Assembly (NCBI RefSeq): GCF_052324685.1
Contig: NW_027506980.1
Location: forward strand, 300,397-364,396
Direction of reading: 5' to 3'
Source: Brachyhypopomus gauderio
Lineage: Eukaryota > Chordata > Actinopteri > Gymnotiformes > Hypopomidae
DNA: 64,000 bases
The notes below the pieces were generated by a model. The model ran no database searches. It saw only the letters and a program-made list of their open reading frames with translations, and was not told where the DNA came from. Shown in pieces: positions 20,711 to 44,381 of the stretch. How positions within the stretch are numbered: position 1 is the first letter of the stretch; each line of letters starts with the position of its first letter. Both the position numbers and the translations under genes were made by a program.

Positions 20711-20751
<41 letters not shown>

Positions 20752-20757
20752 AGAGAC
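20684..20757 (-). tRNA. tRNA-Asn-GTT: tRNA-Asn(GTT), unit 14
   Basis: Consensus sequence. Confidence 0.97.
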
Positions 20758-21911
20758 CAGATGCTGCTGTGCTTACATAGTTCTTCCTCAAAAGAAAAAC
20801 CCAACAAGCACATTCCTCCTGTTTGCTGGCTTTTGATGAAATGAGCCAATGCATAAAGGATGCAACATCAATGTCACTCACACTTTTCTGCTAGCTTGTC
20901 TAAAATTCGCCCTTCCTTCAATTTCTCACTTGTCAAGACCTGCAGGTCTTCAAACAAAAGGTCAGTTTGTAGACCCTTTTCCTGTCAAAGTTTTGATCCT
21001 TTTGTCCACCAGTCATCGGAATGTGTATGATTTTCACCAGTTTACACAGTGTAGCTCCCTTGCCTTCAGTTGCAGGGTTATGTCCTCTTAGATAAGACGC
21101 TTTTGAAATTATTTGTGAAAATGCACCCAAAACCTATTCAAAACAGATTTGATGGAAGCACTGCAGGAGCTGCTCCAAGACGCATTTTGTCCAGAAAATG
21201 TGCTATCATGAATGCATCCATATCACCAACACACATTTACAAACCAAACCATAGGCAATAAAATACATGAGTAAACTGATTTGTGGACCTTTGTGGCACT
21301 TGGTACTGCTGAGATCAGGATCATTACAGAGTTCAGCAATTATTTTCCCAACTAGGTCATTGATACATTGGAATCCCCAATGTTTTCTGGAACAGAATAG
21401 GCTATGCCTTTCGGATGAGAATAAAAAAAGACTTCAAGAACCAAAAAAGAAGTTAAGCTGCCTTCAGCTGATGTACTCAGACTAAAGGGAAACACTTTAA
21501 ATCCCAAGGTGAAATGCACATGCTCAAAATTTTATCAGGACAGAGTACATGTTTTACTTTGATATTAAGAGCGATCACTGGATTGTCTTCCAGTAAATTA
21601 TAGTTTTCTTCCGCTACAAAACGTTTTTTCAACAACTATAAAGAGGCTATGCAATGAAACTGAGCTGAGATGTCAAGTGCCTTTAATGGTACATTTTTGA
21701 CCCCACTTCAAATGCTGCTGTTACCTGACCAGTTCGATTGTTAGTTTGCCAGATTCTCAATCTCTGGGATGTGAGATCATGCACCAGGTTTAGTGAATGT
21801 TTAAGGGTGAAGGTCTTTAGTTTCTGCACAAATTCCACAAACATAGCTCAGGTCCTGCTCAACATGTCAACATGTGGCGACAGCAAGTGCCTTTGGGGTC
21901 CTACAAAAATC

Positions 21912-21984
21912 GCCCGGCTAGCTCAGTCGGTAGAGCATGAGACTCTTAATCTCAGGGTCGTGGGTTCGAGCCCCACGTTGGGCG
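21912..21984 (+). tRNA. tRNA-Lys-CTT: tRNA-Lys(CTT), unit 15
   Basis: Consensus gene with C56 intact. The tatag marker upstream (as in units 2 and 20-25) is followed by a unit-9-like right half, so unit 15 is a chimera. Confidence 0.97.
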
Positions 21985-22073
21985 AGAGGCTGATTTGTTT
22001 GAGTGAAATGTTGAAATTTAGTTAATCTGTTTGCACAAAATACGTCTAAAAAAGAAGAGAAAGGAACATACAT

Positions 22074-22100
22074 CGTCCCTGAGTGGGCTCGAACCACCAT

Positions 22101-22141
<41 letters not shown>

Positions 22142-22147
22142 AGAGAC
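22074..22147 (-). tRNA. tRNA-Asn-GTT: tRNA-Asn(GTT), unit 15, T65 variant
   Basis: C65 to T (A at 22082 on +); agag/ataac and AGTCACCGG to the right, as in unit 9. Confidence 0.95.
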
Positions 22148-23301
22148 CAGATGCTGCTGTGCTTACATAGTTCTTCCTCAAAAGAAAAACCCAACAAGCA
22201 CATTCCTCCTGTTTGCTGGCTTTTGATGAAATGAGCCAATGCATAAAGGATGCAACATCAATGTCACTCACACTTTTCTGCTAGCTTGTCTAAAATTCGC
22301 CCTTCCTTCAATTTCTCACTTGTCAAGACCTGCAGGTCTTCAAACAAAAGGTCAGTTTGTAGACCCTTTTCCTGTCAAAGTTTTGATCCTTTTGTCCACC
22401 AGTCACCGGAATGTGTATGATTTTCACCAGTTTACACAGAGTAGCTCCCTTGCTTTCAGTTGCAGGGTTATGTCCTCTTAGATAAGACGCTTTTGAAATT
22501 ATTTGTGAAAATGCACCCAAAACCTATTCAAAACAGATTTGATGGAAGCACTGCAGGAGCTGCTCCAAGACGCATTTTGTCCAGAAAATGTGCTATCATG
22601 AATGCATCCATATCACCAACACACATTTACAAACCAAACCATAGGCAATAAAATACATGAGTAAACTGATTTGTGGACCTTTGTGGCACTTGGTACTGCT
22701 GAGATCAGGATCATAACAGAGTTCAGCAATTATTTTCCCAACTAGGTCATTGATACATTGGAATCCCCAATGTTTTCTGGAACAGAATAGGCTATGCCTT
22801 TCGGATGAGAATAAAAAAAGACTTCAAGAACCAAAAAAGAAGTTAAGCTGCCTTCAGCTGATGTACTCAGACTAAAGGGAAACACTTTAAATCCCAAGGT
22901 GAAATGCACATGCTCAAAATTTTATCAGGACAGAGTACATGTTTTACTTTGATATTAAGAGCGATCACTAGATTGTCTTCCAGTAAATTAATGTTTTCTT
23001 CCGCTACAAAACGTTTTTTCAACAACTATAAAGAGGCTATGCAACGAAACTGAGCTGAGATGTCAAGTGCCTTTAATGGTACATTTTTGACCCCACTTCA
23101 AATGCTGCTGTTACCTGACCAGTTCGATTGTTAGTTTGCCAGATTCTCAATCTCTGGGATGTGAGATCATGCACCAGGTTTAGTGAATGTTTAAGGGTGA
23201 AGGTCTTTAGTTTCTGCACAAATTCCACAAACATAGCTCAGGTCCTGCTCAACATGTCAACATGTGGCGACAGCAAGTGCCTTTGGGGTCCTACAAAAAT
23301 C

Positions 23302-23374
23302 GCCCGGCTAGCTCAGTCGGTAGAGCATGAGACTCTTAATCTCAGGGTCGTGGGTTCGAGCCCCACGTTGGGCG
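23302..23374 (+). tRNA. tRNA-Lys-CTT: tRNA-Lys(CTT), unit 16
   Basis: Consensus sequence. Confidence 0.97.
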
Positions 23375-23463
23375 AGAGGCTGATTTGTTTGAGTGAAATG
23401 TTGAAATTTAGTTAATCTGTTTGCACAAAATACGTCTAAAAAAGAAGAGAAAGGAACATACAT

Positions 23464-23490
23464 CGTCCCTGGGTGGGCTCGAACCACCAT

Positions 23491-23531
<41 letters not shown>

Positions 23532-23537
23532 AGAGAC
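23464..23537 (-). tRNA. tRNA-Asn-GTT: tRNA-Asn(GTT), unit 16
   Basis: Consensus gene; tccagg and tcgtc to the right, matching unit 10. Confidence 0.97.
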
Positions 23538-24691
23538 CAGATGCTGCTGTGCTTACATAGTTCTTCCTCAAAAGAAAAACCCAACAAGCACATTCCTCCT
23601 GTTTGCTGGCTTTTGATGAAATGAGCCAATGCATAAAGGATGCAACATCAATGTCACTCACACTTTTCTGCTAGCTTGTCTAAAATTCGCCCTTCCTTCA
23701 ATTTCTCACTTGTCAAGACCTCCAGGTCTTCAAACAAAAGGTCAGTTTGTAGACCCTTTTCCTGTCAAAGTTTTGATCCTTTTGTCCACCAGTCATCGGA
23801 ATGTGTATGATTTTCACCAGTTTACACAGTGTAGCTCCCTTGCCTTCAGTTGCAGGGTTATGTCGTCTTAGATAAGACGCTTTTGAAATTATTTGTGAAA
23901 ATGCACCCAAAACCTATTCAAAACAGATTTGATGGAAGCACTGCAGGAGCTGCTCCAAGACGCATTTTGTCCAGAAAATGTGCTATCATGAATGCATCCA
24001 TATCACCAACACACATTTACAAACCAAACCATAGGCAATAAAATACATGAGTAAACTGATTTGTGGACCTTTGTGGCACTTGGTACTGCTGAGATCAGGA
24101 TCATTACAGAGTTCAGCAATTATTTTCCCAACTAGGTCATTGATACATTGGAATCCCCAATGTTTTCTGGAACAGAATAGGCTATGCCTTTCGGATGAGA
24201 ATAAAAAAAGACTTCAAGAACCAAAAAAGAAGTTAAGCTGCCTTCAGCTGATGTACTCAGACTAAAGGGAAACACTTTAAATCCCAAGGTGAAATGCACA
24301 TGCTCAAAATTTTATCAGGACAGAGTACATGTTTTACTTTGATATTAAGAGCGATCACTGGATTGTCTTCCAGTAAATTAATGTTTTCTTCCGCTACAAA
24401 ACGTTTTTTCAACAACTATAAAGAGGCTATGCAACGAAACTGAGCTGGGATGTCAAGTGCCTTTAATGGTACCTTTTTGACCCCACTTCAAATGCTGCTG
24501 TTACCTGACCAGTTCGATTGTTAGTTTGCCAGATTCTCAATCTCTGGGATGTGAGATCATGCACCAGGTTTAGTGAATGTTTAAGGGTGAAGGTCTTTAA
24601 TTTCTGCACAAATTCCACAAACATAGCTCAGGTCCTGCTCAACATGTCAACATGTGGCGACAGCAAGTGCCTTTGGGGTCTTACAAAAATC

Positions 24692-24764
24692 GCCCGGCTA
24701 GCTCAGTCGGTAGAGCATGAGACTCTTAATCTCAGGGTCGTGGGTTCGAGCCCCACGTTGGGCG
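24692..24764 (+). tRNA. tRNA-Lys-CTT: tRNA-Lys(CTT), unit 17
   Basis: Consensus gene; ttaat and GGTCTTAC upstream, matching unit 11. Confidence 0.97.
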
Positions 24765-24853
24765 AGAGGCTGATTTGTTTGAGTGAAATGTTGAAATTTA
24801 GTTAATCTGTTTGCACAAAATACGTCTAAAAAAGAAGAGAAAGGAACATGCAT

Positions 24854-24880
24854 CGTCCCTGGGTGGGCTCGAACCACCAT

Positions 24881-24921
<41 letters not shown>

Positions 24922-24927
24922 AGAGAC
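24854..24927 (-). tRNA. tRNA-Asn-GTT: tRNA-Asn(GTT), unit 17
   Basis: Consensus gene; a private A-to-G change (ACATGCATCG) lies 5 bases beyond its 3' end. Confidence 0.97.
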
Positions 24928-26081
24928 CAGATGCTGCTGTGCTTACATAGTTCTTCCTCAAAAGAAAAACCCAACAAGCACATTCCTCCTGTTTGCTGGC
25001 TTTTGATGAAATGAGCCAATGCATAAAGGATGCAACATCAATGTCACTCACACTTTTCTGCTAGCTTGTCTAAAATTCGCCCTTCCTTCAATTTCTCACT
25101 TGTCAAGACCTGCAGGTCTTCAAACAAAAGGTCAGTTTGTAGACCCTTTTCCTGTCAAAGTTTTGATCCTTTTGTCCACCAGTCATCGGAATGTGTATGA
25201 TTTTCACCAGTTTACACAGTGTAGCTCCCTTGCCTTCAGTTGCAGGGTTATGTCCTCTTAGATAAGACGCTTTTGAAATTATTTGTGAAAATGCACCCAA
25301 AACCTATTCAAAACAGATTTGATGGAAGCACTGCAGGAGCTGCTCCAAGACGCATTTTGTCCAGAAAATGTGCTATCATGAATGCATCCATATCACCAAC
25401 ACACATTTACAAACCAAACCATAGGCAATAAAATACATGAGTAAACTGATTTGTGGACCTTTGTGGCACTTGGTACTGCTGAGATCAGGATCATTACAGA
25501 GTTCAGCAATTATTTTCCCAACTAGGTCATTGATACATTGGAATCCCCAATGTTTTCTGGAACAGAATAGGCTATGCCTTTCGGATGAGAATAAAAAAAG
25601 ACTTCAAGAACCAAAAAAGAAGTTAAGCTGCCTTCAGCTGATGTACTCAGACTAAAGGGAAACACTTTAAATCCCAAGGTGAAATGCACATGCTCAAAAT
25701 TTTATCAGGACAGAGTACATGTTTTACTTTGATATTAAGAGCGATCACTAGATTGTCTTCCAGTAAATTAATGTTTTCTTCCGCTACAAAACGTTTTTTC
25801 AACAACTATAAAGAGGCTATGCAACGAAACTGAGCTGAGATGTCAAGTGCCTTTAATGGTACATTTTTGACCCCACTTCAAATGCTGCTGTTACCTGACC
25901 AGTTCGATTGTTAGTTTGCCAGATTCTCAATCTCTGGGATGTGAGATCATGCACCAGGTTTAGTGAATGTTTAAGGGTGAAGGTCTTTAGTTTCTGCACA
26001 AATTCCACAAACATAGCTCAGGTCCTGCTCAACATGTCAACATGTGGCGACAGCAAGTGCCTTTGGGGTCCTACAAAAATC

Positions 26082-26154
26082 GCCCGGCTAGCTCAGTCGG
26101 TAGAGCATGAGACTCTTAATCTCAGGGTCGTGGGTTCGAGCCCCACGTTGGGCG
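26082..26154 (+). tRNA. tRNA-Lys-CTT: tRNA-Lys(CTT), unit 18
   Basis: Consensus sequence. Confidence 0.97.
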
Positions 26155-26243
26155 AGAGGCTGATTTGTTTGAGTGAAATGTTGAAATTTAGTTAATCTGT
26201 TTGCACAAAATACGTCTAAAAAAGAAGAGAAAGGAACATACAT

Positions 26244-26270
26244 CGTCCCTGGGTGGGCTCGAACCACCAT

Positions 26271-26311
<41 letters not shown>

Positions 26312-26317
26312 AGAGAC
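26244..26317 (-). tRNA. tRNA-Asn-GTT: tRNA-Asn(GTT), unit 18
   Basis: Consensus gene; gatta to the right, matching unit 12. Confidence 0.97.
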
Positions 26318-27471
26318 CAGATGCTGCTGTGCTTACATAGTTCTTCCTCAAAAGAAAAACCCAACAAGCACATTCCTCCTGTTTGCTGGCTTTTGATTAA
26401 ATGAGCCAATGCATAAAGGATGCAACATCAATGTCACTCACACTTTTCTGCTAGCTTGTCTAAAATTCGCCCTTCCTTCAATTTCTCACTTGTCAAGACC
26501 TGCAGGTCTTCAAACAAAAGGTCAGTTTGTAGACCCTTTTCCTGTCAAAGTTTTGATCCTTTTGTCCACCAGTCATCGGAATGTGTATGATTTTCACCAG
26601 TTTACACAGTGTAGCTCCCTTGCCTTCAGTTGCAGGGTTATGTCCTCTTAGATAAGACGCTTTTGAAATTATTTGTGAAAATGCACCCAAAACCTATTCA
26701 AAACAGATTTGATGGAAGCACTGCAGGAGCTGCTCCAAGACGCATTTTGTCCAGAAAATGTGCTATCATGAATGCATCCATATCACCAACACACATTTAC
26801 AAACCAAACCATAGGCAATAAAATACATGAGTAAACTGATTTGTGGACCTTTGTGGCACTTGGTACTGCTGAGATCAGGATCATTACAGAGTTCAGCAAT
26901 TATTTTCCCAACTAGGTCATTGATACATTGGAATCCCCAATGTTTTCTGGAACAGAATAGGCTATGCCTTTCGGATGAGAATAAAAAAAGACTTCAAGAA
27001 CCAAAAAAGAAGTTAAGCTGCCTTCAGCTGATGTACTCAGACTAAAGGGAAACACTTTAAATCCCAAGGTGAAATGCACATGCTCAAAATTTTATCAGGA
27101 CAGAGTACATGTTTTACTTTGATATTAAGAGCGATCACTAGATTGTCTTCCAGTAAATTAATGTTTTCTTCCGCTACAAAACGTTTTTTCAACAACTATA
27201 AAGAGGTTATGCAACGAAACTGAGCTGAGATGTCAAGTGCCTTTAATGGTACATTTTTGACCCCACTTCAAATGCTGCTGTTACCTGACCAGTTCGATTG
27301 TTAGTTTGCCAGATTCTCAATCTCTGGGATGTGAGATCATGCACCAGGTTTAGTGAATGTTTAAGGGTGAAGGTCTTTAGTTTCTGCACAAATTCCACAA
27401 ACATAGCTCAGGTCCTGCTCAACATGTCAACATGTGGCGACAGCAAGTGCCTTTGGGGTCCTACAAAAATC

Positions 27472-27544
27472 GCCCGGCTAGCTCAGTCGGTAGAGCATGA
27501 GACTCTTAATCTCAGGGTCGTGGGTTCGAGCCCCACGTTGGGCG
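27472..27544 (+). tRNA. tRNA-Lys-CTT: tRNA-Lys(CTT), unit 19
   Basis: Consensus gene; ggtta upstream, matching units 1 and 14. Confidence 0.97.
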
Positions 27545-27633
27545 AGAGGCTGATTTGTTTGAGTGAAATGTTGAAATTTAGTTAATCTGTTTGCACAAAA
27601 TACGTCTAAAAAAGAAGAGAAAGGAACATACAT

Positions 27634-27660
27634 CGTCCCTGGGTGGGCTCGAACCACCAT

Positions 27661-27701
<41 letters not shown>

Positions 27702-27707
27702 AGAGAC
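27634..27707 (-). tRNA. tRNA-Asn-GTT: tRNA-Asn(GTT), unit 19
   Basis: Consensus sequence. Confidence 0.97.
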
Positions 27708-28861
27708 CAGATGCTGCTGTGCTTACATAGTTCTTCCTCAAAAGAAAAACCCAACAAGCACATTCCTCCTGTTTGCTGGCTTTTGATGAAATGAGCCAAT
27801 GCATAAAGGATGCAACATCAATGTCACTCACACTTTTCTGCTAGCTTGTCTAAAATTCGCCCTTCCTTCAATTTCTCACTTGTCAAGACCTGCAGGTCTT
27901 CAAACAAAAGGTCAGTTTGTAGACCCTTTTCCTGTCAAAGTTTTGATCCTTTTGTCCACCAGTCATCGGAATGTGTATGATTTTCACCAGTTTACACAGT
28001 GTAGCTCCCTTGCCTTCAGTTGCAGGGTTATGTCCTCTTAGATAAGACGCTTTTGAAATTATTTGTGAAAATGCACCCAAAACCTATTCAAAACAGATTT
28101 GATGGAAGCACTGCAGGAGCTGCTCCAAGACGCATTTTGTCCAGAAAATGTGCTATCATGAATGCATCCATATCACCAACACACATTTACAAACCAAACC
28201 ATAGGCAATAAAATACATGAGTAAACTGATTTGTGGACCTTTGTGGCACTTGGTACTGCTGAGATCAGGATCATTACAGAGTTCAGCAATTATTTTCCCA
28301 ACTAGGTCATTGATACATTGGAATCCCCAATGTTTTCTGGAACAGAATAGGCTATGCCTTTCGGATGAGAATAAAAAAAGACTTCAAGAACCAAAAAAGA
28401 AGTTAAGCTGCCTTCAGCTGATGTACTCAGACTAAAGGGAAACACTTTAAATCCCAAGGTGAAATGCACATGCTCAAAATTTTATCAGGACAGAGTACAT
28501 GTTTTACTTTGATATTAAGAGCGATCACTGGATTGTCTTCCAGTAAATTATAGTTTTCTTCCGCTACAAAACGTTTTTTCAACAACTATAAAGAGGCTAT
28601 GCAATGAAACTGAGCTGAGATGTCAAGTGCCTTTAATGGTACATTTTTGACCCCACTTCAAATGCTGCTGTTACCTGACCAGTTCGATTGTTAGTTTGCC
28701 AGATTCTCAATCTCTGGGATGTGAGATCATGCACCAGGTTTAGTGAATGTTTAAGGGTGAAGGTCTTTAGTTTCTGCACAAATTCCACAAACATAGCTCA
28801 GGTCCTGCTCAACATGTCAACATGTGGCGACAGCAAGTGCCTTTGGGGTACTACAAAAATC

Positions 28862-28934
28862 GCCCGGCTAGCTCAGTCGGTAGAGCATGAGACTCTTAAT
28901 CTCAGGGTCGTGGGTTGGAGCCCCACGTTGGGCG
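28862..28934 (+). tRNA. tRNA-Lys-CTT: tRNA-Lys(CTT), unit 20, G56 variant, probably silent
   Basis: G at 28917 replaces T-loop C56 (TTGGAG). C56 is the most critical B-box base for TFIIIC binding (a C56G change is a classic promoter-down mutation in yeast tRNA genes) and it forms the G19-C56 pair at the elbow. The anticodon is intact. First of six consecutive units with this change; tatag and GGTACTAC upstream. Confidence 0.9.
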
Positions 28935-29023
28935 AGAGGCTGATTTGTTTGAGTGAAATGTTGAAATTTAGTTAATCTGTTTGCACAAAATACGTCTAAA
29001 AAAGAAGAGAAAGGAACATACAT

Positions 29024-29050
29024 CGTCCCTGGGTGGGCTCGAACCACCAT

Positions 29051-29091
<41 letters not shown>

Positions 29092-29097
29092 AGAGAC
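29024..29097 (-). tRNA. tRNA-Asn-GTT: tRNA-Asn(GTT), unit 20
   Basis: Consensus gene; the Asn partner is intact although the Lys gene of the same unit is damaged. Confidence 0.97.
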
Positions 29098-30251
29098 CAG
29101 ATGCTGCTGTGCTTACATAGTTCTTCCTCAAAAGAAAAACCCAACAAGCACATTCCTCCTGTTTGCTGGCTTTTGATGAAATGAGCCAATGCATAAAGGA
29201 TGCAACATCAATGTCACTCACACTTTTCTGCTAGCTTGTCTAAAATTCGCCCTTCCTTCAATTTCTCACTTGTCAAGACCTGCAGGTCTTCAAACAAAAG
29301 GTCAGTTTGTAGACCCTTTTCCTGTCAAAGTTTTGATCCTTTTGTCCACCAGTCATCGGAATGTGTATGATTTTCACCAGTTTACACAGTGTAGCTCCCT
29401 TGCCTTCAGTTGCAGGGTTATGTCCTCTTAGATAAGACGCTTTTGAAATTATTTGTGAAAATGCACCCAAAACCTATTCAAAACAGATTTGATGGAAGCA
29501 CTGCAGGAGCTGCTCCAAGACGCATTTTGTCCAGAAAATGTGCTATCATGAATGCATCCATATCACCAACACACATTTACAAACCAAACCATAGGCAATA
29601 AAATACATGAGTAAACTGATTTGTGGACCTTTGTGGCACTTGGTACTGCTGAGATCAGGATCATTACAGAGTTCAGCAATTATTTTCCCAACTAGGTCAT
29701 TGATACATTGGAATCCCCAATGTTTTCTGGAACAGAATAGGCTATGCCTTTCGGATGAGAATAAAAAAAGACTTCAAGAACCAAAAAAGAAGTTAAGCTG
29801 CCTTCAGCTGATGTACTCAGACTAAAGGGAAACACTTTAAATCCCAAGGTGAAATGCACATGCTCAAAATTTTATCAGGACAGAGTACATGTTTTACTTT
29901 GATATTAAGAGCGATCACTGGATTGTCTTCCAGTAAATTATAGTTTTCTTCCGCTACAAAACGTTTTTTCAACAACTATAAAGAGGCTATGCAATGAAAC
30001 TGAGCTGAGATGTCAAGTGCCTTTAATGGTACATTTTTGACCCCACTTCAAATGCTGCTGTTACCTGACCAGTTCGATTGTTAGTTTGCCAGATTCTCAA
30101 TCTCTGGGATGTGAGATCATGCACCAGGTTTAGTGAATGTTTAAGGGTGAAGGTCTTTAGTTTCTGCACAAATTCCACAAACATAGCTCAGGTCCTGCTC
30201 AACATGTCAACATGTGGCGACAGCAAGTGCCTTTGGGGTACTACAAAAATC

Positions 30252-30324
30252 GCCCGGCTAGCTCAGTCGGTAGAGCATGAGACTCTTAATCTCAGGGTCG
30301 TGGGTTGGAGCCCCACGTTGGGCG
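30252..30324 (+). tRNA. tRNA-Lys-CTT: tRNA-Lys(CTT), unit 21, G56 variant
   Basis: G56 at 30307; same tatag background as unit 20. Confidence 0.9.
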
Positions 30325-30413
30325 AGAGGCTGATTTGTTTGAGTGAAATGTTGAAATTTAGTTAATCTGTTTGCACAAAATACGTCTAAAAAAGAAGAGA
30401 AAGGAACATACAT

Positions 30414-30440
30414 CGTCCCTGGGTGGGCTCGAACCACCAT

Positions 30441-30481
<41 letters not shown>

Positions 30482-30487
30482 AGAGAC
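30414..30487 (-). tRNA. tRNA-Asn-GTT: tRNA-Asn(GTT), unit 21
   Basis: Consensus gene; gatta and ACACACTGTAG to the right, the latter shared only with unit 23. Confidence 0.97.
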
Positions 30488-31641
30488 CAGATGCTGCTGT
30501 GCTTACATAGTTCTTCCTCAAAAGAAAAACCCAACAAGCACATTCCTCCTGTTTGCTGGCTTTTGATTAAATGAGCCAATGCATAAAGGATGCAACATCA
30601 ATGTCACTCACACTTTTCTGCTAGCTTGTCTAAAATTCGCCCTTCCTTCAATTTCTCACTTGTCAAGACCTGCAGGTCTTCAAACAAAAGGTCAGTTTGT
30701 AGACCCTTTTCCTGTCAAAGTTTTGATCCTTTTGTCCACCAGTCATCGGAATGTGTATGATTTTCACCAGTTTACACACTGTAGCTCCCTTGCCTTCAGT
30801 TGCAGGGTTATGTCCTCTTAGATAAGACGCTTTTGAAATTATTTGTGAAAATGCACCCAAAACCTATTCAAAACAGATTTGATGGAAGCACTGCAGGAGC
30901 TGCTCCAAGACGCATTTTGTCCAGAAAATGTGCTATCATGAATGCATCCATATCACCAACACACATTTACAAACCAAACCATAGGCAATAAAATACATGA
31001 GTAAACTGATTTGTGGACCTTTGTGGCACTTGGTACTGCTGAGATCAGGATCATTACAGAGTTCAGCAATTATTTTCCCAACTAGGTCATTGATACATTG
31101 GAATCCCCAATGTTTTCTGGAACAGAATAGGCTATGCCTTTCGGATGAGAATAAAAAAAGACTTCAAGAACCAAAAAAGAAGTTAAGCTGCCTTCAGCTG
31201 ATGTACTCAGACTAAAGGGAAACACTTTAAATCCCAAGGTGAAATGCACATGCTCAAAATTTTATCAGGACAGAGTACATGTTTTACTTTGATATTAAGA
31301 GCGATCACTGGATTGTCTTCCAGTAAATTATAGTTTTCTTCCGCTACAAAACGTTTTTTCAACAACTATAAAGAGGCTATGCAATGAAACTGAGCTGAGA
31401 TGTCAAGTGCCTTTAATGGTACATTTTTGACCCCACTTCAAATGCTGCTGTTACCTGACCAGTTCGATTGTTAGTTTGCCAGATTCTCAATCTCTGGGAT
31501 GTGAGATCATGCACCAGGTTTAGTGAATGTTTAAGGGTGAAGGTCTTTAGTTTCTGCACAAATTCCACAAACATAGCTCAGGTCCTGCTCAACATGTCAA
31601 CATGTGGCGACAGCAAGTGCCTTTGGGGTACTACAAAAATC

Positions 31642-31714
31642 GCCCGGCTAGCTCAGTCGGTAGAGCATGAGACTCTTAATCTCAGGGTCGTGGGTTGGAG
31701 CCCCACGTTGGGCG
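31642..31714 (+). tRNA. tRNA-Lys-CTT: tRNA-Lys(CTT), unit 22, G56 variant
   Basis: G56 at 31697; tatag background. Confidence 0.9.
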
Positions 31715-31803
31715 AGAGGCTGATTTGTTTGAGTGAAATGTTGAAATTTAGTTAATCTGTTTGCACAAAATACGTCTAAAAAAGAAGAGAAAGGAACATA
31801 CAT

Positions 31804-31830
31804 CGTCCCTGGGTGGGCTCGAACCACCAT

Positions 31831-31871
<41 letters not shown>

Positions 31872-31877
31872 AGAGAC
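31804..31877 (-). tRNA. tRNA-Asn-GTT: tRNA-Asn(GTT), unit 22
   Basis: Consensus gene; no gatta marker, matching unit 20. Confidence 0.97.
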
Positions 31878-33031
31878 CAGATGCTGCTGTGCTTACATAG
31901 TTCTTCCTCAAAAGAAAAACCCAACAAGCACATTCCTCCTGTTTGCTGGCTTTTGATGAAATGAGCCAATGCATAAAGGATGCAACATCAATGTCACTCA
32001 CACTTTTCTGCTAGCTTGTCTAAAATTCGCCCTTCCTTCAATTTCTCACTTGTCAAGACCTGCAGGTCTTCAAACAAAAGGTCAGTTTGTAGACCCTTTT
32101 CCTGTCAAAGTTTTGATCCTTTTGTCCACCAGTCATCGGAATGTGTATGATTTTCACCAGTTTACACAGTGTAGCTCCCTTGCCTTCAGTTGCAGGGTTA
32201 TGTCCTCTTAGATAAGACGCTTTTGAAATTATTTGTGAAAATGCACCCAAAACCTATTCAAAACAGATTTGATGGAAGCACTGCAGGAGCTGCTCCAAGA
32301 CGCATTTTGTCCAGAAAATGTGCTATCATGAATGCATCCATATCACCAACACACATTTACAAACCAAACCATAGGCAATAAAATACATGAGTAAACTGAT
32401 TTGTGGACCTTTGTGGCACTTGGTACTGCTGAGATCAGGATCATTACAGAGTTCAGCAATTATTTTCCCAACTAGGTCATTGATACATTGGAATCCCCAA
32501 TGTTTTCTGGAACAGAATAGGCTATGCCTTTCGGATGAGAATAAAAAAAGACTTCAAGAACCAAAAAAGAAGTTAAGCTGCCTTCAGCTGATGTACTCAG
32601 ACTAAAGGGAAACACTTTAAATCCCAAGGTGAAATGCACATGCTCAAAATTTTATCAGGACAGAGTACATGTTTTACTTTGATATTAAGAGCGATCACTG
32701 GATTGTCTTCCAGTAAATTATAGTTTTCTTCCGCTACAAAACGTTTTTTCAACAACTATAAAGAGGCTATGCAATGAAACTGAGCTGAGATGTCAAGTGC
32801 CTTTAATGGTACATTTTTGACCCCACTTCAAATGCTGCTGTTACCTGACCAGTTCGATTGTTAGTTTGCCAGATTCTCAATCTCTGGGATGTGAGATCAT
32901 GCACCAGGTTTAGTGAATGTTTAAGGGTGAAGGTCTTTAGTTTCTGCACAAATTCCACAAACATAGCTCAGGTCCTGCTCAACATGTCAACATGTGGCGA
33001 CAGCAAGTGCCTTTGGGGTACTACAAAAATC

Positions 33032-33104
33032 GCCCGGCTAGCTCAGTCGGTAGAGCATGAGACTCTTAATCTCAGGGTCGTGGGTTGGAGCCCCACGTTG
33101 GGCG
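33032..33104 (+). tRNA. tRNA-Lys-CTT: tRNA-Lys(CTT), unit 23, G56 variant
   Basis: G56 at 33087; tatag background. Confidence 0.9.
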
Positions 33105-33193
33105 AGAGGCTGATTTGTTTGAGTGAAATGTTGAAATTTAGTTAATCTGTTTGCACAAAATACGTCTAAAAAAGAAGAGAAAGGAACATACAT

Positions 33194-33220
33194 CGTCCCT
33201 GGGTGGGCTCGAACCACCAT

Positions 33221-33261
<41 letters not shown>

Positions 33262-33267
33262 AGAGAC
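33194..33267 (-). tRNA. tRNA-Asn-GTT: tRNA-Asn(GTT), unit 23
   Basis: Consensus gene; gatta and ACACACTGTAG to the right, matching unit 21. Confidence 0.97.
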
Positions 33268-34421
33268 CAGATGCTGCTGTGCTTACATAGTTCTTCCTCA
33301 AAAGAAAAACCCAACAAGCACATTCCTCCTGTTTGCTGGCTTTTGATTAAATGAGCCAATGCATAAAGGATGCAACATCAATGTCACTCACACTTTTCTG
33401 CTAGCTTGTCTAAAATTCGCCCTTCCTTCAATTTCTCACTTGTCAAGACCTGCAGGTCTTCAAACAAAAGGTCAGTTTGTAGACCCTTTTCCTGTCAAAG
33501 TTTTGATCCTTTTGTCCACCAGTCATCGGAATGTGTATGATTTTCACCAGTTTACACACTGTAGCTCCCTTGCCTTCAGTTGCAGGGTTATGTCCTCTTA
33601 GATAAGACGCTTTTGAAATTATTTGTGAAAATGCACCCAAAACCTATTCAAAACAGATTTGATGGAAGCACTGCAGGAGCTGCTCCAAGACGCATTTTGT
33701 CCAGAAAATGTGCTATCATGAATGCATCCATATCACCAACACACATTTACAAACCAAACCATAGGCAATAAAATACATGAGTAAACTGATTTGTGGACCT
33801 TTGTGGCACTTGGTACTGCTGAGATCAGGATCATTACAGAGTTCAGCAATTATTTTCCCAACTAGGTCATTGATACATTGGAATCCCCAATGTTTTCTGG
33901 AACAGAATAGGCTATGCCTTTCGGATGAGAATAAAAAAAGACTTCAAGAACCAAAAAAGAAGTTAAGCTGCCTTCAGCTGATGTACTCAGACTAAAGGGA
34001 AACACTTTAAATCCCAAGGTGAAATGCACATGCTCAAAATTTTATCAGGACAGAGTACATGTTTTACTTTGATATTAAGAGCGATCACTGGATTGTCTTC
34101 CAGTAAATTATAGTTTTCTTCCGCTACAAAACGTTTTTTCAACAACTATAAAGAGGCTATGCAATGAAACTGAGCTGAGATGTCAAGTGCCTTTAATGGT
34201 ACATTTTTGACCCCACTTCAAATGCTGCTGTTACCTGACCAGTTCGATTGTTAGTTTGCCAGATTCTCAATCTCTGGGATGTGAGATCATGCACCAGGTT
34301 TAGTGAATGTTTAAGGGTGAAGGTCTTTAGTTTCTGCACAAATTCCACAAACATAGCTCAGGTCCTGCTCAACATGTCAACATGTGGCGACAGCAAGTGC
34401 CTTTGGGGTACTACAAAAATC

Positions 34422-34494
34422 GCCCGGCTAGCTCAGTCGGTAGAGCATGAGACTCTTAATCTCAGGGTCGTGGGTTGGAGCCCCACGTTGGGCG
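34422..34494 (+). tRNA. tRNA-Lys-CTT: tRNA-Lys(CTT), unit 24, G56 variant
   Basis: G56 at 34477; tatag background. Confidence 0.9.
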
Positions 34495-34583
34495 AGAGGC
34501 TGATTTGTTTGAGTGAAATGTTGAAATTTAGTTAATCTGTTTGCACAAAATACGTCTAAAAAAGAAGAGAAAGGAACATACAT

Positions 34584-34610
34584 CGTCCCTGGGTGGGCTC
34601 GAACCACCAT

Positions 34611-34651
<41 letters not shown>

Positions 34652-34657
34652 AGAGAC
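34584..34657 (-). tRNA. tRNA-Asn-GTT: tRNA-Asn(GTT), unit 24
   Basis: Consensus gene; no gatta marker. A private G-to-A change (GATATACTCAG) follows at the start of unit 25. Confidence 0.97.
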
Positions 34658-35811
34658 CAGATGCTGCTGTGCTTACATAGTTCTTCCTCAAAAGAAAAAC
34701 CCAACAAGCACATTCCTCCTGTTTGCTGGCTTTTGATGAAATGAGCCAATGCATAAAGGATGCAACATCAATGTCACTCACACTTTTCTGCTAGCTTGTC
34801 TAAAATTCGCCCTTCCTTCAATTTCTCACTTGTCAAGACCTGCAGGTCTTCAAACAAAAGGTCAGTTTGTAGACCCTTTTCCTGTCAAAGTTTTGATCCT
34901 TTTGTCCACCAGTCATCGGAATGTGTATGATTTTCACCAGTTTACACAGTGTAGCTCCCTTGCCTTCAGTTGCAGGGTTATGTCCTCTTAGATAAGACGC
35001 TTTTGAAATTATTTGTGAAAATGCACCCAAAACCTATTCAAAACAGATTTGATGGAAGCACTGCAGGAGCTGCTCCAAGACGCATTTTGTCCAGAAAATG
35101 TGCTATCATGAATGCATCCATATCACCAACACACATTTACAAACCAAACCATAGGCAATAAAATACATGAGTAAACTGATTTGTGGACCTTTGTGGCACT
35201 TGGTACTGCTGAGATCAGGATCATTACAGAGTTCAGCAATTATTTTCCCAACTAGGTCATTGATACATTGGAATCCCCAATGTTTTCTGGAACAGAATAG
35301 GCTATGCCTTTCGGATGAGAATAAAAAAAGACTTCAAGAACCAAAAAAGAAGTTAAGCTGCCTTCAGCTGATATACTCAGACTAAAGGGAAACACTTTAA
35401 ATCCCAAGGTGAAATGCACATGCTCAAAATTTTATCAGGACAGAGTACATGTTTTACTTTGATATTAAGAGCGATCACTGGATTGTCTTCCAGTAAATTA
35501 TAGTTTTCTTCCGCTACAAAACGTTTTTTCAACAACTATAAAGAGGCTATGCAATGAAACTGAGCTGAGATGTCAAGTGCCTTTAATGGTACATTTTTGA
35601 CCCCACTTCAAATGCTGCTGTTACCTGACCAGTTCGATTGTTAGTTTGCCAGATTCTCAATCTCTGGGATGTGAGATCATGCACCAGGTTTAGTGAATGT
35701 TTAAGGGTGAAGGTCTTTAGTTTCTGCACAAATTCCACAAACATAGCTCAGGTCCTGCTCAACATGTCAACATGTGGCGACAGCAAGTGCCTTTGGGGTA
35801 CTACAAAAATC

Positions 35812-35884
35812 GCCCGGCTAGCTCAGTCGGTAGAGCATGAGACTCTTAATCTCAGGGTCGTGGGTTGGAGCCCCACGTTGGGCG
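35812..35884 (+). tRNA. tRNA-Lys-CTT: tRNA-Lys(CTT), unit 25, G56 variant
   Basis: G56 at 35867; last of the six-unit run. Confidence 0.9.
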
Positions 35885-35973
35885 AGAGGCTGATTTGTTT
35901 GAGTGAAATGTTGAAATTTAGTTAATCTGTTTGCACAAAATACGTCTAAAAAAGAAGAGAAAGGAACATACAT

Positions 35974-36000
35974 CGTCCCTGGGTGGGCTCGAACCACCAT

Positions 36001-36041
<41 letters not shown>

Positions 36042-36047
36042 AGAGAC
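35974..36047 (-). tRNA. tRNA-Asn-GTT: tRNA-Asn(GTT), unit 25
   Basis: Consensus gene; gatta to the right with the ordinary ACACAGTGTAG, as in unit 2. Confidence 0.97.
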
Positions 36048-37201
36048 CAGATGCTGCTGTGCTTACATAGTTCTTCCTCAAAAGAAAAACCCAACAAGCA
36101 CATTCCTCCTGTTTGCTGGCTTTTGATTAAATGAGCCAATGCATAAAGGATGCAACATCAATGTCACTCACACTTTTCTGCTAGCTTGTCTAAAATTCGC
36201 CCTTCCTTCAATTTCTCACTTGTCAAGACCTGCAGGTCTTCAAACAAAAGGTCAGTTTGTAGACCCTTTTCCTGTCAAAGTTTTGATCCTTTTGTCCACC
36301 AGTCATCGGAATGTGTATGATTTTCACCAGTTTACACAGTGTAGCTCCCTTGCCTTCAGTTGCAGGGTTATGTCCTCTTAGATAAGACGCTTTTGAAATT
36401 ATTTGTGAAAATGCACCCAAAACCTATTCAAAACAGATTTGATGGAAGCACTGCAGGAGCTGCTCCAAGACGCATTTTGTCCAGAAAATGTGCTATCATG
36501 AATGCATCCATATCACCAACACACATTTACAAACCAAACCATAGGCAATAAAATACATGAGTAAACTGATTTGTGGACCTTTGTGGCACTTGGTACTGCT
36601 GAGATCAGGATCATTACAGAGTTCAGCAATTATTTTCCCAACTAGGTCATTGATACATTGGAATCCCCAATGTTTTCTGGAACAGAATAGGCTATGCCTT
36701 TCGGATGAGAATAAAAAAAGACTTCAAGAACCAAAAAAGAAGTTAAGCTGCCTTCAGCTGATGTACTCAGACTAAAGGGAAACACTTTAAATCCCAAGGT
36801 GAAATGCACATGCTCAAAATTTTATCAGGACAGAGTACATGTTTTACTTTGATATTAAGAGCGATCACTAGATTGTCTTCCAGTAAATTAATGTTTTCTT
36901 CCGCTACAAAACGTTTTTTCAACAACTACAAAGAGGCTATGCAACGAAACTGAGCTGAGATGTCAAGTGCCTTTAATGGTACATTTTTGACCCCACTTCA
37001 AATGCTGCTGTTACCTGACCAGTTCGATTGTTAGTTTGCCAGATTCTCAATCTCTGGGATGTGAGATCATGCACCAGGTTTAGTGAATGTTTAAGGGTGA
37101 AGGTCTTTAGTTTCTGCACAAATTCCACAAACATAGCTCAGGTCCTGCTCAACATGTCAACATGTGGCGACAGCAAGTGCCTTTGGGGTCCTACAAAAAT
37201 C

Positions 37202-37274
37202 GCCCGGCTAGCTCAGTCGGTAGAGCATGAGACTCTTAATCTCAGGGTCGTGGGTTCGAGCCCCACGTTGGGCG
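37202..37274 (+). tRNA. tRNA-Lys-CTT: tRNA-Lys(CTT), unit 26
   Basis: Consensus gene; a private T-to-C change (AACTACAAAG) upstream. Confidence 0.97.
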
Positions 37275-37363
37275 AGAGGCTGATTTGTTTGAGTGAAATG
37301 TTGAAATTTAGTTAATCTGTTTGCACAAAATACGTCTAAAAAAGAAGAGAAAGGAACATACAT

Positions 37364-37390
37364 CTTCCCTGAGTGGGCTCGAACCACCAT

Positions 37391-37431
<41 letters not shown>

Positions 37432-37437
37432 AGAGAC
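37364..37437 (-). tRNA. tRNA-Asn-GTT: tRNA-Asn(GTT), unit 26, A72/T65 variant
   Basis: A72 (T at 37365 on +) and T65 (A at 37372); agag/ataac to the right, matching unit 3. Confidence 0.92.
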
Positions 37438-38591
37438 CAGATGCTGCTGTGCTTACATAGTTCTTCCTCAAAAGAAAAACCCAACAAGCACATTCCTCCT
37501 GTTTGCTGGCTTTTGATGAAATGAGCCAATGCATAAAGGATGCAACATCAATGTCACTCACACTTTTCTGCTAGCTTGTCTAAAATTCGCCCTTCCTTCA
37601 ATTTCTCACTTGTCAAGACCTGCAGGTCTTCAAACAAAAGGTCAGTTTGTAGACCCTTTTCCTGTCAAAGTTTTGATCCTTTTGTCCACCAGTCATCGGA
37701 ATGTGTATGATTTTCACCAGTTTACACAGAGTAGCTCCCTTGCTTTCAGTTGCAGGGTTATGTCCTCTTAGATAAGACGCTTTTGAAATTATTTGTGAAA
37801 ATGCACCCAAAACCTATTCAAAACAGATTTGATGGAAGCACTGCAGGAGCTGCTCCAAGACGCATTTTGTCCAGAAAATGTGCTATCATGAATGCATCCA
37901 TATCACCAACACACATTTACAAACCAAACCATAGGCAATAAAATACATGAGTAAACTGATTTGTGGACCTTTGTGGCACTTGGTACTGCTGAGATCAGGA
38001 TCATAACAGAGTTCAGCAATTATTTTCCCAACTAGGTCATTGATACATTGGAATCCCCAATGTTTTCTGGAACAGAATAGGCTATGCCTTTCGGATGAGA
38101 ATAAAAAAAGACTTCAAGAACCAAAAAAGAAGTTAAGCTGCCTTCAGCTGATGTACTCAGACTAAAGGGAAACACTTTAAATCCCAAGGTGAAATGCACA
38201 TGCTCAAAATTTTATCAGGACAGAGTACATGTTTTACTTTGATATTAAGAGCGATCACTAGATTGTCTTCCAGTAAATGAATGTTTTCTTCCGCTACAAA
38301 ACGTTTTTTCAACAACTATAAAGAGGCTATGCAACGAAACTGAGCTGAGATGTCAAGTGCCTTTAATGGTACATTTTTGACCCCACTTCAAATGCTGCTG
38401 TTACCTGACCAGTTCGATTGTTAGTTTGCCAGATTCTCAATCTCTGGGATGTGAGATCATGCACCAGGTTTAGTGAATGTTTAAGGGTGAAGGTCTTTAG
38501 TTTCTGCACAAATTCCACAAACATAGCTCAGGTCCTGCTCAACATGTCAACATGTGGCGACAGCAAGTGCCTTTGGGGTCCTACAAAAATC

Positions 38592-38664
38592 GCCCGGCTA
38601 GCTCAGTCGGTAGAGCATGAGACTCTTAATCTCAGGGTCGTGGGTTCGAGCCCCACGTTGGGCG
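38592..38664 (+). tRNA. tRNA-Lys-CTT: tRNA-Lys(CTT), unit 27
   Basis: Consensus gene; atga upstream, matching unit 4. Confidence 0.97.
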
Positions 38665-38753
38665 AGAGGCTGATTTGTTTGAGTGAAATGTTGAAATTTA
38701 GTTAATCTGTTTGCACAAAATACGTCTAAAAAAGAAGAGAAAGGAACATACAT

Positions 38754-38780
38754 CGTCCCTGGGTGGGCTCGAACCACCAT

Positions 38781-38821
<41 letters not shown>

Positions 38822-38827
38822 AGAGAC
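38754..38827 (-). tRNA. tRNA-Asn-GTT: tRNA-Asn(GTT), unit 27
   Basis: Consensus sequence. Confidence 0.97.
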
Positions 38828-39981
38828 CAGATGCTGCTGTGCTTACATAGTTCTTCCTCAAAAGAAAAACCCAACAAGCACATTCCTCCTGTTTGCTGGC
38901 TTTTGATGAAATGAGCCAATGCATAAAGGATGCAACATCAATGTCACTCACACTTTTCTGCTAGCTTGTCTAAAATTCGCCCTTCCTTCAATTTCTCACT
39001 TGTCAAGACCTGCAGGTCTTCAAACAAAAGGTCAGTTTGTAGACCCTTTTCCTGTCAAAGTTTTGATCCTTTTGTCCACCAGTCATCGGAATGTGTATGA
39101 TTTTCACCAGTTTACACAGTGTAGCTCCCTTGCCTTCAGTTGCAGGGTTATGTCCTCTTAGATAAGACGCTTTTGAAATTATTTGTGAAAATGCACCCAA
39201 AACCTATTCAAAACAGATTTGATGGAAGCACTGCAGGAGCTGCTCCAAGACGCATTTTGTCCAGAAAATGTGCTATCATGAATGCATCCATATCACCAAC
39301 ACACATTTACAAACCAAACCATAGGCAATAAAATACATGAGTAAACTGATTTGTGGACCTTTGTGGCACTTGGTACTGCTGAGATCAGGATCATTACAGA
39401 GTTCAGCAATTATTTTCCCAACTAGGTCATTGATACATTGGAATCCCCAATGTTTTCTGGAACAGAATAGGCTATGCCTTTCGGATGAGAATAAAAAAAG
39501 ACTTCAAGAACCAAAAAAGAAGTTAAGCTGCCTTCAGCTGATGTACTCAGACTAAAGGGAAACACTTTAAATCCCAAGGTGAAATGCACATGCTCAAAAT
39601 TTTATCAGGACAGAGTACATGTTTTACTTTGATATTAAGAGTGATCAATGGATTGTCTTCCAGTAAATTAATGTTTTCTTCCGCTACAAAACGTTTTTTC
39701 AACAACTATAAAGAGGCTATGCAACGAAACTGAGCTGGGATGTCAAGTGCCTTTAATGGTACCTTTTTGACCCCACTTCAAATGCTGCTGTTACCTGACC
39801 AGTTCGATTGTTAGTTTGCCAGATTCTCAATCTCTGGGATGTGAGATCATGCACCAGGTTTAGTGAATGTTTAAGGGTGAAGGTCTTTAATTTCTGCACA
39901 AATTCCACAAACATAGCTCAGGTCCTGCTCAACATGTCAACATGTGGCGACAGCAAGTGCCTTTGGGGTCTTACAAAAATC

Positions 39982-40054
39982 GCCCGGCTAGCTCAGTCGG
40001 TAGAGCATGAGACTCTTAATCTCAGGGTCGTGGGTTCGAGCCCCACGTTGGGCG
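39982..40054 (+). tRNA. tRNA-Lys-CTT: tRNA-Lys(CTT), unit 28
   Basis: Consensus gene; gatcaatg, ttaat and GGTCTTAC upstream, matching unit 5 except for the A-to-T change near the gene start. Confidence 0.97.
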
Positions 40055-40143
40055 AGAGGCTGATTTGTTTGAGTGAAATGTTGAAATTTAGTTAATCTGT
40101 TTGCACAAAATACGTCTAAAAAAGAAGAGAAAGGAACATACAT

Positions 40144-40170
40144 CGTCCCTGGGTGGGCTCGAACCACCAT

Positions 40171-40211
<41 letters not shown>

Positions 40212-40217
40212 AGAGAC
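40144..40217 (-). tRNA. tRNA-Asn-GTT: tRNA-Asn(GTT), unit 28
   Basis: Consensus sequence. Confidence 0.97.
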
Positions 40218-41371
40218 CAGATGCTGCTGTGCTTACATAGTTCTTCCTCAAAAGAAAAACCCAACAAGCACATTCCTCCTGTTTGCTGGCTTTTGATGAA
40301 ATGAGCCAATGCATAAAGGATGCAACATCAATGTCACTCACACTTTTCTGCTAGCTTGTCTAAAATTCGCCCTTCCTTCAATTTCTCACTTGTCAAGACC
40401 TGCAGGTCTTCAAACAAAAGGTCAGTTTGTAGACCCTTTTCCTGTCAAAGTTTTGATCCTTTTGTCCACCAGTCATCGGAATGTGTATGATTTTCACCAG
40501 TTTACACAGTGTAGCTCCCTTGCCTTCAGTTGCAGGGTTATGTCCTCTTAGATAAGACGCTTTTGAAATTATTTGTGAAAATGCACCCAAAACCTATTCA
40601 AAACAGATTTGATGGAAGCACTGCAGGAGCTGCTCCAAGACGCATTTTGTCCAGAAAATGTGCTATCATGAATGCATCCATATCACCAACACACATTTAC
40701 AAACCAAACCATAGGCAATAAAATACATGAGTAAACTGATTTGTGGACCTTTGTGGCACTTGGTACTGCTGAGATCAGGATCATTACAGAGTTCAGCAAT
40801 TATTTTCCCAACTAGGTCATTGATACATTGGAATCCCCAATGTTTTCTGGAACAGAATAGGCTATGCCTTTCGGATGAGAATAAAAAAAGACTTCAAGAA
40901 CCAAAAAAGAAGTTAAGCTGCCTTCAGCTGATGTACTCAGACTAAAGGGAAACACTTTAAATCCCAAGGTGAAATGCACATGCTCAAAATTTTATCAGGA
41001 CAGAGTACATGTTTTACTTTGATATTAAGAGCGATCACTAGATTGTCTTCCAGTAAATTAATGTTTTCTTCCGCTACAAAACGTTTTTTCAACAACTATA
41101 AAGAGGCTATGCAACGAAACTGAGCTGAGATGTCAAGTGCCTTTAATGGTACATTTTTGACCCCACTTCAAATGCTGCTGTTACCTGACCAGTTCGATTG
41201 TTAGTTTGCCAGATTCTCAATCTCTGGGATGTGAGATCATGCACCAGGTTTAGTGAATGTTTAAGGGTGAAGGTCTTTAGTTTCTGCACAAATTCCACAA
41301 ACATAGCTCAGGTCCTGCTCAACATGTCAACATGTGGCGACAGCAAGTGCCTTTGGGGTCCTACAAAAATC

Positions 41372-41444
41372 GCCCGGCTAGCTCAGTCGGTAGAGCATGA
41401 GACTCTTAATCTCAGGGTCGTGGGTTCGAGCCCCACGTTGGGCG
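41372..41444 (+). tRNA. tRNA-Lys-CTT: tRNA-Lys(CTT), unit 29
   Basis: Consensus sequence. Confidence 0.97.
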
Positions 41445-41533
41445 AGAGGCTGATTTGTTTGAGTGAAATGTTGAAATTTAGTTAATCTGTTTGCACAAAA
41501 TACGTCTAAAAAAGAAGAGAAAGGAACATACAT

Positions 41534-41560
41534 CGTCCCTGGGTGGGCTCGAACCACCAT

Positions 41561-41601
<41 letters not shown>

Positions 41602-41607
41602 AGAGAC
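41534..41607 (-). tRNA. tRNA-Asn-GTT: tRNA-Asn(GTT), unit 29
   Basis: Consensus gene; a private C-to-A change (AGATGATGC) in its 5' flank, and gatta farther right. Confidence 0.97.
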
Positions 41608-42761
41608 CAGATGATGCTGTGCTTACATAGTTCTTCCTCAAAAGAAAAACCCAACAAGCACATTCCTCCTGTTTGCTGGCTTTTGATTAAATGAGCCAAT
41701 GCATAAAGGATGCAACATCAATGTCACTCACACTTTTCTGCTAGCTTGTCTAAAATTCGCCCTTCCTTCAATTTCTCACTTGTCAAGACCTGCAGGTCTT
41801 CAAACAAAAGGTCAGTTTGTAGACCCTTTTCCTGTCAAAGTTTTGATCCTTTTGTCCACCAGTCATCGGAATGTGTATGATTTTCACCAGTTTACACAGT
41901 GTAGCTCCCTTGCCTTCAGTTGCAGGGTTATGTCCTCTTAGATAAGACGCTTTTGAAATTATTTGTGAAAATGCACCCAAAACCTATTCAAAACAGATTT
42001 GATGGAAGCACTGCAGGAGCTGCTCCAAGACGCATTTTGTCCAGAAAATGTGCTATCATGAATGCATCCATATCACCAACACACATTTACAAACCAAACC
42101 ATAGGCAATAAAATACATGAGTAAACTGATTTGTGGACCTTTGTGGCACTTGGTACTGCTGAGATCAGGATCATTACAGAGTTCAGCAATTATTTTCCCA
42201 ACTAGGTCATTGATACATTGGAATCCCCAATGTTTTCTGGAACAGAATAGGCTATGCCTTTCGGATGAGAATAAAAAAAGACTTCAAGAACCAAAAAAGA
42301 AGTTAAGCTGCCTTCAGCTGATGTACTCAGACTAAAGGGAAACACTTTAAATCCCAAGGTGAAATGCACATGCTCAAAATTTTATCAGGACAGAGTACAT
42401 GTTTTACTTTGATATTAAGAGCGATCACTAGATTGTCTTCCAGTAAATTAATGTTTTCTTCCGCTACAAAACGTTTTTTCAACAACTATAAAGAGGCTAT
42501 GCAACGAAACTGAGCTGAGATGTCAAGTGCCTTTAATGGTACATTTTTGACCCCACTTCAAATGCTGCTGTTACCTGACCAGTTCGATTGTTAGTTTGCC
42601 AGATTCTCAATCTCTGGGATGTGAGATCATGCACCAGGTTTAGTGAATGTTTAAGGGTGAAGGTCTTTAGTTTCTGCACAAATTCCACAAACATAGCTCA
42701 GGTCCTGCTCAACATGTCAACATGTGGCGACAGCAAGTGCCTTTGGGGTCCTACAAAAATC

Positions 42762-42834
42762 GCCCGGCTAGCTCAGTCGGTAGAGCATGAGACTCTTAAT
42801 CTCAGGGTCGTGGGTTCGAGCCCCACGTTGGGCG
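42762..42834 (+). tRNA. tRNA-Lys-CTT: tRNA-Lys(CTT), unit 30
   Basis: Consensus sequence. Confidence 0.97.
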
Positions 42835-42923
42835 AGAGGCTGATTTGTTTGAGTGAAATGTTGAAATTTAGTTAATCTGTTTGCACAAAATACGTCTAAA
42901 AAAGAAGAGAAAGGAACATACAT

Positions 42924-42950
42924 CGTCCCTGAGTGGGCTCGAACCACCAT

Positions 42951-42991
<41 letters not shown>

Positions 42992-42997
42992 AGAGAC
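42924..42997 (-). tRNA. tRNA-Asn-GTT: tRNA-Asn(GTT), unit 30, T65 variant
   Basis: C65 to T (A at 42932 on +) without agag/ataac, a combination shared with unit 33. Private TGTGGGACT farther right. Confidence 0.95.
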
Positions 42998-44151: not shown

Positions 44152-44224
44152 GCCCGGCTAGCTCAGTCGGTAGAGCATGAGACTCTTAATCTCAGGGTCG
44201 TGGGTTCGAGCCCCACGTTGGGCG
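44152..44224 (+). tRNA. tRNA-Lys-CTT: tRNA-Lys(CTT), unit 31
   Basis: Consensus sequence. Confidence 0.97.

Positions 44225-44340: not shown

Positions 44341-44381
<41 letters not shown>

Follow-up and report, generated by a model that had tools for sequence, protein, structure and literature searches.

A probably silent C56G allele of tRNA-Lys in the tandem Lys/Asn tRNA array of Brachyhypopomus gauderio

The human variable number tandem repeat at 1q23.3 is described, in the passages of PMC4041453 devoted to it, as made up of tandem, unstable transfer RNA (tRNA) units, with 9–43 units per allele. High-copy tRNA repeats are also reported from another vertebrate, the zebrafish, in which isodecoders of early development are encoded in repetitive regions, according to the relevant parts of PMC11417395. 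The locus analysed here is of this kind. It occupies most of the final 64 kb of contig C136 (NW_027506980.1, positions 300,397 to 364,396; hereafter, the window, 64,000 nt) in an assembly of the fish Brachyhypopomus gauderio (GCF_052324685.1; 796.5 Mb, 840 contigs). Each array unit is 1390 bp long and contains a Lys-CTT gene on the forward strand and an Asn-GTT gene on the reverse strand, which converge and are separated by 89 bp. Forty-five units are visible, the last being cut at the window end, and several consecutive units have a Lys gene in which the B-box base C56 is replaced with G. We consider it likely that this array displays ordinary concerted evolution, which carries along a Lys allele that is probably silent, with weak selection on each copy.

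G56 genes in the window and across the genome

A first-pass annotation of this sequence had reported G56 in the Lys genes of units 20–25, alongside consensus Asn genes, and both the sequence and the Rfam scores confirmed this, with unit 36 added as a seventh copy. In the six consecutive units, the sole departure from the Lys consensus is the C to G change at mature position 56, numbered along the 73-nt gene as delimited by Rfam, and the tRNA score is 60.6 bits rather than the 65.1 bits of the consensus. The six neighbouring Asn genes are all consensus and reach 68.4 bits, the top score in the window. G56 was found in 7 of the 45 full Lys genes of the window, and 34 of the 45 are intact. All seven G56 copies retain G19 in the D loop, and C56G is therefore uncompensated: both the B-box C56 and the G19–C56 pair are lost. 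An invariant promoter and tertiary base has thus disappeared, as in a tRNA pseudogene. The cloverleaf and the CTT anticodon are nonetheless present, and ARAGORN and Rfam both called all seven genes.

The first-pass annotation had treated G56 as a matter of one block, and this did not hold. An exact 34-base pattern containing G56 had at least 44 matches in the genome (27 on C136, 11 on C1, four on C255 and two on C319), this number being a minimum since a copy altered elsewhere within the 34 bases would be overlooked; the reversed control pattern had no match genome-wide. Exact pattern scans of genome and viral contig collections yielded no match. Together with the window, the regions read (C136:100397–300396, C1:205001–245000 and the first 10 kb each of C255 and C319) cover 42 of the 44 copies. 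The upstream backgrounds of these 42 copies numbered 13, or 12 after two left-cut pieces were merged into the largest group. Sorted by hand, they fall into about seven haplotype groups, with 22 copies carrying C424T on a B' type, 14 of the D type or close to it, two with the consensus and four singles. Both C56 and G56 occur on four upstream backgrounds among the readable units. On C136, the copies are clustered, the 27 copies forming 15 runs among 176 unit pieces (23.0 runs on average after shuffling, none of 5000 shuffles having as few), with unreadable units counted as lacking G56.

Since at least 44 copies are spread over four contigs and these haplotype groups, G56 extends well beyond the block. 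It circulates among the arrays of this family and is probably older than units 20–25 rather than born there. Two simpler accounts were discarded: an event private to units 20–25, in view of unit 36 and the 44 genome copies, and recurrent mutation as the source of every G56 copy, in view of the number of backgrounds.

Eighteen G56 copies, all outside the window, also carry G30C, which breaks an anticodon-stem pair and, together with C56G, brings the score to 50.4 bits. The marker C424T accompanies G56 without G30C on C255 and C319, and G30C may therefore postdate G56. In the window, the 3908 bp that begin in unit 33 and stop one base short of the G56 of unit 36 are identical to positions 4159–8066, which end in unit 5, so that the exact repeat between units 33–36 and units 2–5 stops at the G56 base itself. 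The closest left marker separating unit 36, which has a B haplotype, from the block haplotype lies 62 bp from G56. The simplest source of the unit 36 allele would be a short conversion tract donated by a unit with G56.

Origin of the block of units 20–25

Exchange between units was examined as a mark of concerted evolution, and 14 exact repeats of at least 2000 bp were found between array positions. In the window, 79 of the 496 informative site pairs show all four gametes, and exchange between units is therefore common. Within the block, units 20, 22 and 24 share one sequence and units 21 and 23 another, two bases apart; unit 25 is likewise two bases away from either. These identical alternating units indicate that the block grew at least partly by two-unit steps.

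According to the first-pass annotation, units 19, 20–25, 26, 27 and 28 parallel units 1 to 5, and this correspondence was borne out. The pairs 1/19, 2/20, 3/26, 4/27 and 5/28 show 2, 2, 1, 0 and 1 differences, a sum of 6 that was equalled by none of 20,000 random sets of five pairs, although the pairs had been preselected by that annotation and the test is therefore post hoc. The flank parallel and the identities within the block argue for multiplication in one place, and the sequences support a local expansion at the position corresponding to unit 2. What did not stand is the second half of the original proposal, amplification from a C56 unit. A third occurrence of the D-C-A-B order of spacer markers was found upstream of the window, and its D unit, at C136:263758, carries G56; unit 2 need not, therefore, be an unmutated ancestor. 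It may represent the older C56 state or have been converted back to C56.

The history originally put forward, in which the position of unit 2 saw both the origin and the multiplication of G56, unit 2 itself keeping the old base, would account for the flank order and the small distances, as unit 2 is of the D type with C56 and differs from each block unit by two bases. However, it sits poorly with the copies on four contigs and with the third D-C-A-B context. Furthermore, the haplotypes of units 20–24 are found again 40–65 kb upstream, where those of units 20 and 21 recur with G56 (at C136 274878 and 273488). We regard this history as distinctly unlikely. Under concerted evolution, the block would be a local amplification by unequal exchange, partly two units at a time, whose starting unit probably had C56G already; gene conversion or crossing over would move the old allele around a large tRNA array spread over several contigs.

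The perfect identity of the dimers and the fact that the contig ends inside the array could also be read as signs of an assembly artefact, in which haplotypes were misjoined or repeats over-expanded to give the block or its number of copies. C255 and C319 have haplotypes in common, and a single locus may be represented by the two of them. However, G56 is linked to different variants on several contigs, so the base is not a single consensus error, and we consider an artefact unlikely, if somewhat less so than an origin of G56 at unit 2. The positions of the array, of the block and its parallel and of the genes concerned are given in Table 1.

Table 1. Features of the Lys/Asn array, in window coordinates
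Feature	Position	Strand	Remarks
Tandem array	1996..64000	+	45 visible units; continues leftward past insertion; contig ends at window base 64000
Units 2–5	3385..8944	+	Haplotypes D, C, A, B in the order shared with units 25–28; unit 2 of D type with C56
Six-unit block, units 20–25	28405..36744	+	All Lys G56; D haplotype (A126G, A147T, T148A, C201T, C446A)
Older Lys gene relic, unit 20	28673..28745	+	Unit-relative 269–341; 44/73 ungapped identity to Lys in unit consensus
Lys-CTT G56 gene, unit 20	28862..28934	+	Variant base 28917
Consensus Asn-GTT gene, unit 20	29024..29097	-	Same in units 21–25; T6 run begins 21 nt downstream
Lys-CTT G56 gene, unit 21	30252..30324	+	Variant base 30307
Lys-CTT G56 gene, unit 22	31642..31714	+	Variant base 31697
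Lys-CTT G56 gene, unit 23	33032..33104	+	Variant base 33087
Lys-CTT G56 gene, unit 24	34422..34494	+	Variant base 34477
Lys-CTT G56 gene, unit 25	35812..35884	+	Variant base 35867
Seventh Lys G56 copy, unit 36	51102..51174	+	Variant base 51157; B haplotype

Promoter loss and selection on single Lys copies

It is mainly the B box that holds yeast TFIIIC, according to the relevant part of PMC11724288. In yeast SUP4, C56G lowers TFIIIC binding 370-fold, as cited in a passage of a paper on human TFIIIC (PMC11811891), and in Dictyostelium the same change abolishes TFIIIC-dependent TRE5-A integration, as stated in a passage of PMC5391098. By analogy with these two organisms, the G56 Lys genes are likely to be silent, a dead promoter being plausible, and we infer that TFIIIC is blocked by G56 in this animal and that copy number is set by drift rather than selection. 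A TFIIIC more tolerant in this fish, with the G56 genes still transcribed and used, would fit the intact remainder of the gene and its score of 60.6 bits. However, the yeast and Dictyostelium results speak against such tolerance, as does the second change, G30C, on 18 G56 copies, and we find it very unlikely.

Carriage of a dead Lys copy is not new to these units, since a relic of an older Lys gene lies at unit-relative positions 269–341. Its identity to the Lys gene was reached by none of 500 shuffles and its local score by none of 3000.

The first-pass annotation had also suggested weak selection on each copy, and the variability of the units supports this. In the window, 6 of the 73 Lys positions, 3 of the 74 Asn positions and 39 of the 1243 positions outside the genes are polymorphic (Lys versus the rest, P = 0.034). 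Over 217 unit pieces, the corresponding counts are 13/73, 8/74 and 87/1243 (P = 0.0024), and inclusion of four divergent left-edge pieces of C136 brings the rest to 100/1243 (P = 0.008); in these tests, the sites are partly non-independent, several cuts were examined and Asn genes outside the window come from readable units only. Sites with at least two carriers in the 217 pieces number 12/73 in Lys, 3/74 in Asn and 50/1243 in the rest. Purifying selection on single Lys copies is therefore not visible, since polymorphic sites are no rarer in Lys than in the spacer. With many intact Lys genes, one dead copy would cost little, and the number of dead copies would drift as spacer variants do. Of the 221 unit pieces outside the window, 94 were not fully readable, so their genes were left unscored and no intact-Lys fraction was taken there; all 44 readable C136 Lys genes outside the window carry a Lys change, but this set is selected by readability.

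Several observations weigh against this interpretation. The variability of Lys, being above that of the spacer, exceeds what plain neutrality predicts. Transcription-linked mutation could explain such an excess; the genes would then have to be transcribed. Lys and Asn taken jointly show no significant excess of polymorphism over the remainder of the unit in the window (9/147, P = 0.088), and the numbers of variant copies are similar (12/45 for Asn and 11/45 for Lys), although most of the Asn variants are mild: seven have only C66T, which gives a G-U pair, four have C66T with a broken first pair and one has a B-box change. Some Lys changes look structure-preserving, as G5A converts a G-U pair into A-U and scores 67.7 bits, and stem pairs are restored in G49A+C65T (three copies) and G52A+C62T (one copy). 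Finally, one readable unit has G30C without G56.

G5A was not retained as a lesion, given its score above the 65.1 bits of the consensus. The Asn gene of unit 1 (window 2614–2687) has T in place of C at position 56 (base 2631), the same key B-box base in the partner gene.

A different explanation, in keeping with the excess Lys variation, is that silencing of Lys is itself favoured. The first T4 run downstream from Lys begins at +237, with no TTTT over 236 nt (window 28935–29170 in unit 20; units 2 and 39 alike), whereas a T6 run follows Asn from +21 in the three units examined. A convergent Lys gene with no T4 nearby could read through Asn, and its silencing would free Asn output. Lesion alleles of Lys, C56G foremost, would then be driven through the arrays, either protecting Asn transcription or correcting the Lys:Asn ratio, and units would become Asn-only, as in the earlier Lys loss. 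In a C1 stretch of 14 fully readable units, the Lys genes comprise nine with G30C+C56G (50.4 bits), two with G1T+G5A (58.8 bits) and three with G5A, so that 11 of the 14 are below consensus; 13 of the 14 Asn genes score 68.4 bits and only one is lower, at 66.2 bits. However, this stretch was chosen for its G56 matches and neighbouring copies in a run are non-independent, and the read-through premise assumes canonical termination. Moreover, carriers per variant do not differ significantly between Lys and the spacer (medians 6 and 2.5, P = 0.14), and three quarters of the Lys genes in the window are intact. Selection for silenced Lys genes is in our view highly improbable, and the same holds for the drive of lesion alleles through the arrays that it would entail.

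The Lys 3' end precedes a T4 at six places (L035–L040), which were considered as dispersed Lys genes with terminators and were rejected, as ARAGORN found a tRNA gene at none of them. All six have CCA after the Lys end and five have near-identical flanks; presumably, they are primer-binding sites of long terminal repeat elements. As none of the six is a tRNA gene, a second Lys supply is unsupported.

Other features of the array and comparison with known repeats

The array does not begin at unit 1, which is preceded by a 5.3-kb piggyBac-like insertion; to the left of this insertion, the array resumes on the same contig. This DNA transposon (window 1–1995 and C136:297118–300396) sits in a TTAA at a unit junction and interrupts the array. 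It has TTAA at both ends, 15-bp inverted ends and one open frame of 542 codons, with PF13843 in the part within the window, and a stretch with similar ends was seen on C136 near 105–110 kb. Two insertions of about 7 kb, at about 171–178 kb and 195–202 kb of C136, have identical ends, as far as these were read, and the same unit context and are apparently one insertion copied together with neighbouring units. Unit 38 (window 53425–55137) contains an internal duplication of 323 bp that adds a second Lys/Asn pair; its second Lys bears G18A, G22C and C65T, as in unit 8. The Lys gene of unit 43 (window 61155–61223) has a T arm that is four bases short, together with G52A and C65T, and the same allele was read once on each of C255 and C319.

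We found no description of a spreading C56G allele, and no match for tRNA pseudogene arrays in fish, in the open-access literature searched, mostly at the level of titles and listings. The human 1q23.3 repeat differs from this array in its 7.3-kb unit, and its passages in PMC4041453 describe no spreading dead allele; the parts of PMC11417395 concerned with the zebrafish arrays likewise describe no position-56 variant. The tRNA arrays of Entamoeba (PMC2652664) are also made of tandem tRNA units, but they have short tandem repeats between the genes and a protist host.

That a damaged Lys copy has been multiplied and shuffled suggests that single Lys copies of the array are hardly protected by selection. 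The array probably offers a clean case in which concerted evolution spreads a tRNA allele that is itself probably silent. Its near-identical units, differing at a B-box base the loss of which cripples TFIIIC binding in yeast, constitute a natural comparison set: since dead and live copies can be separated by sequence, both the array copies used and the strength of selection per copy are measurable. Gene counts from tRNA finders also include such copies, as G56 genes are called by ARAGORN and still score well with Rfam. In the oocyte 5S repeat of Xenopus, each unit contains a pseudogene, so that concerted evolution carries a dead copy in every unit, as it does the relic Lys described here. The Xenopus repeat differs in that it is a 5S and not a tRNA repeat, and in that the C56G allele of B. 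gauderio is still polymorphic among units.

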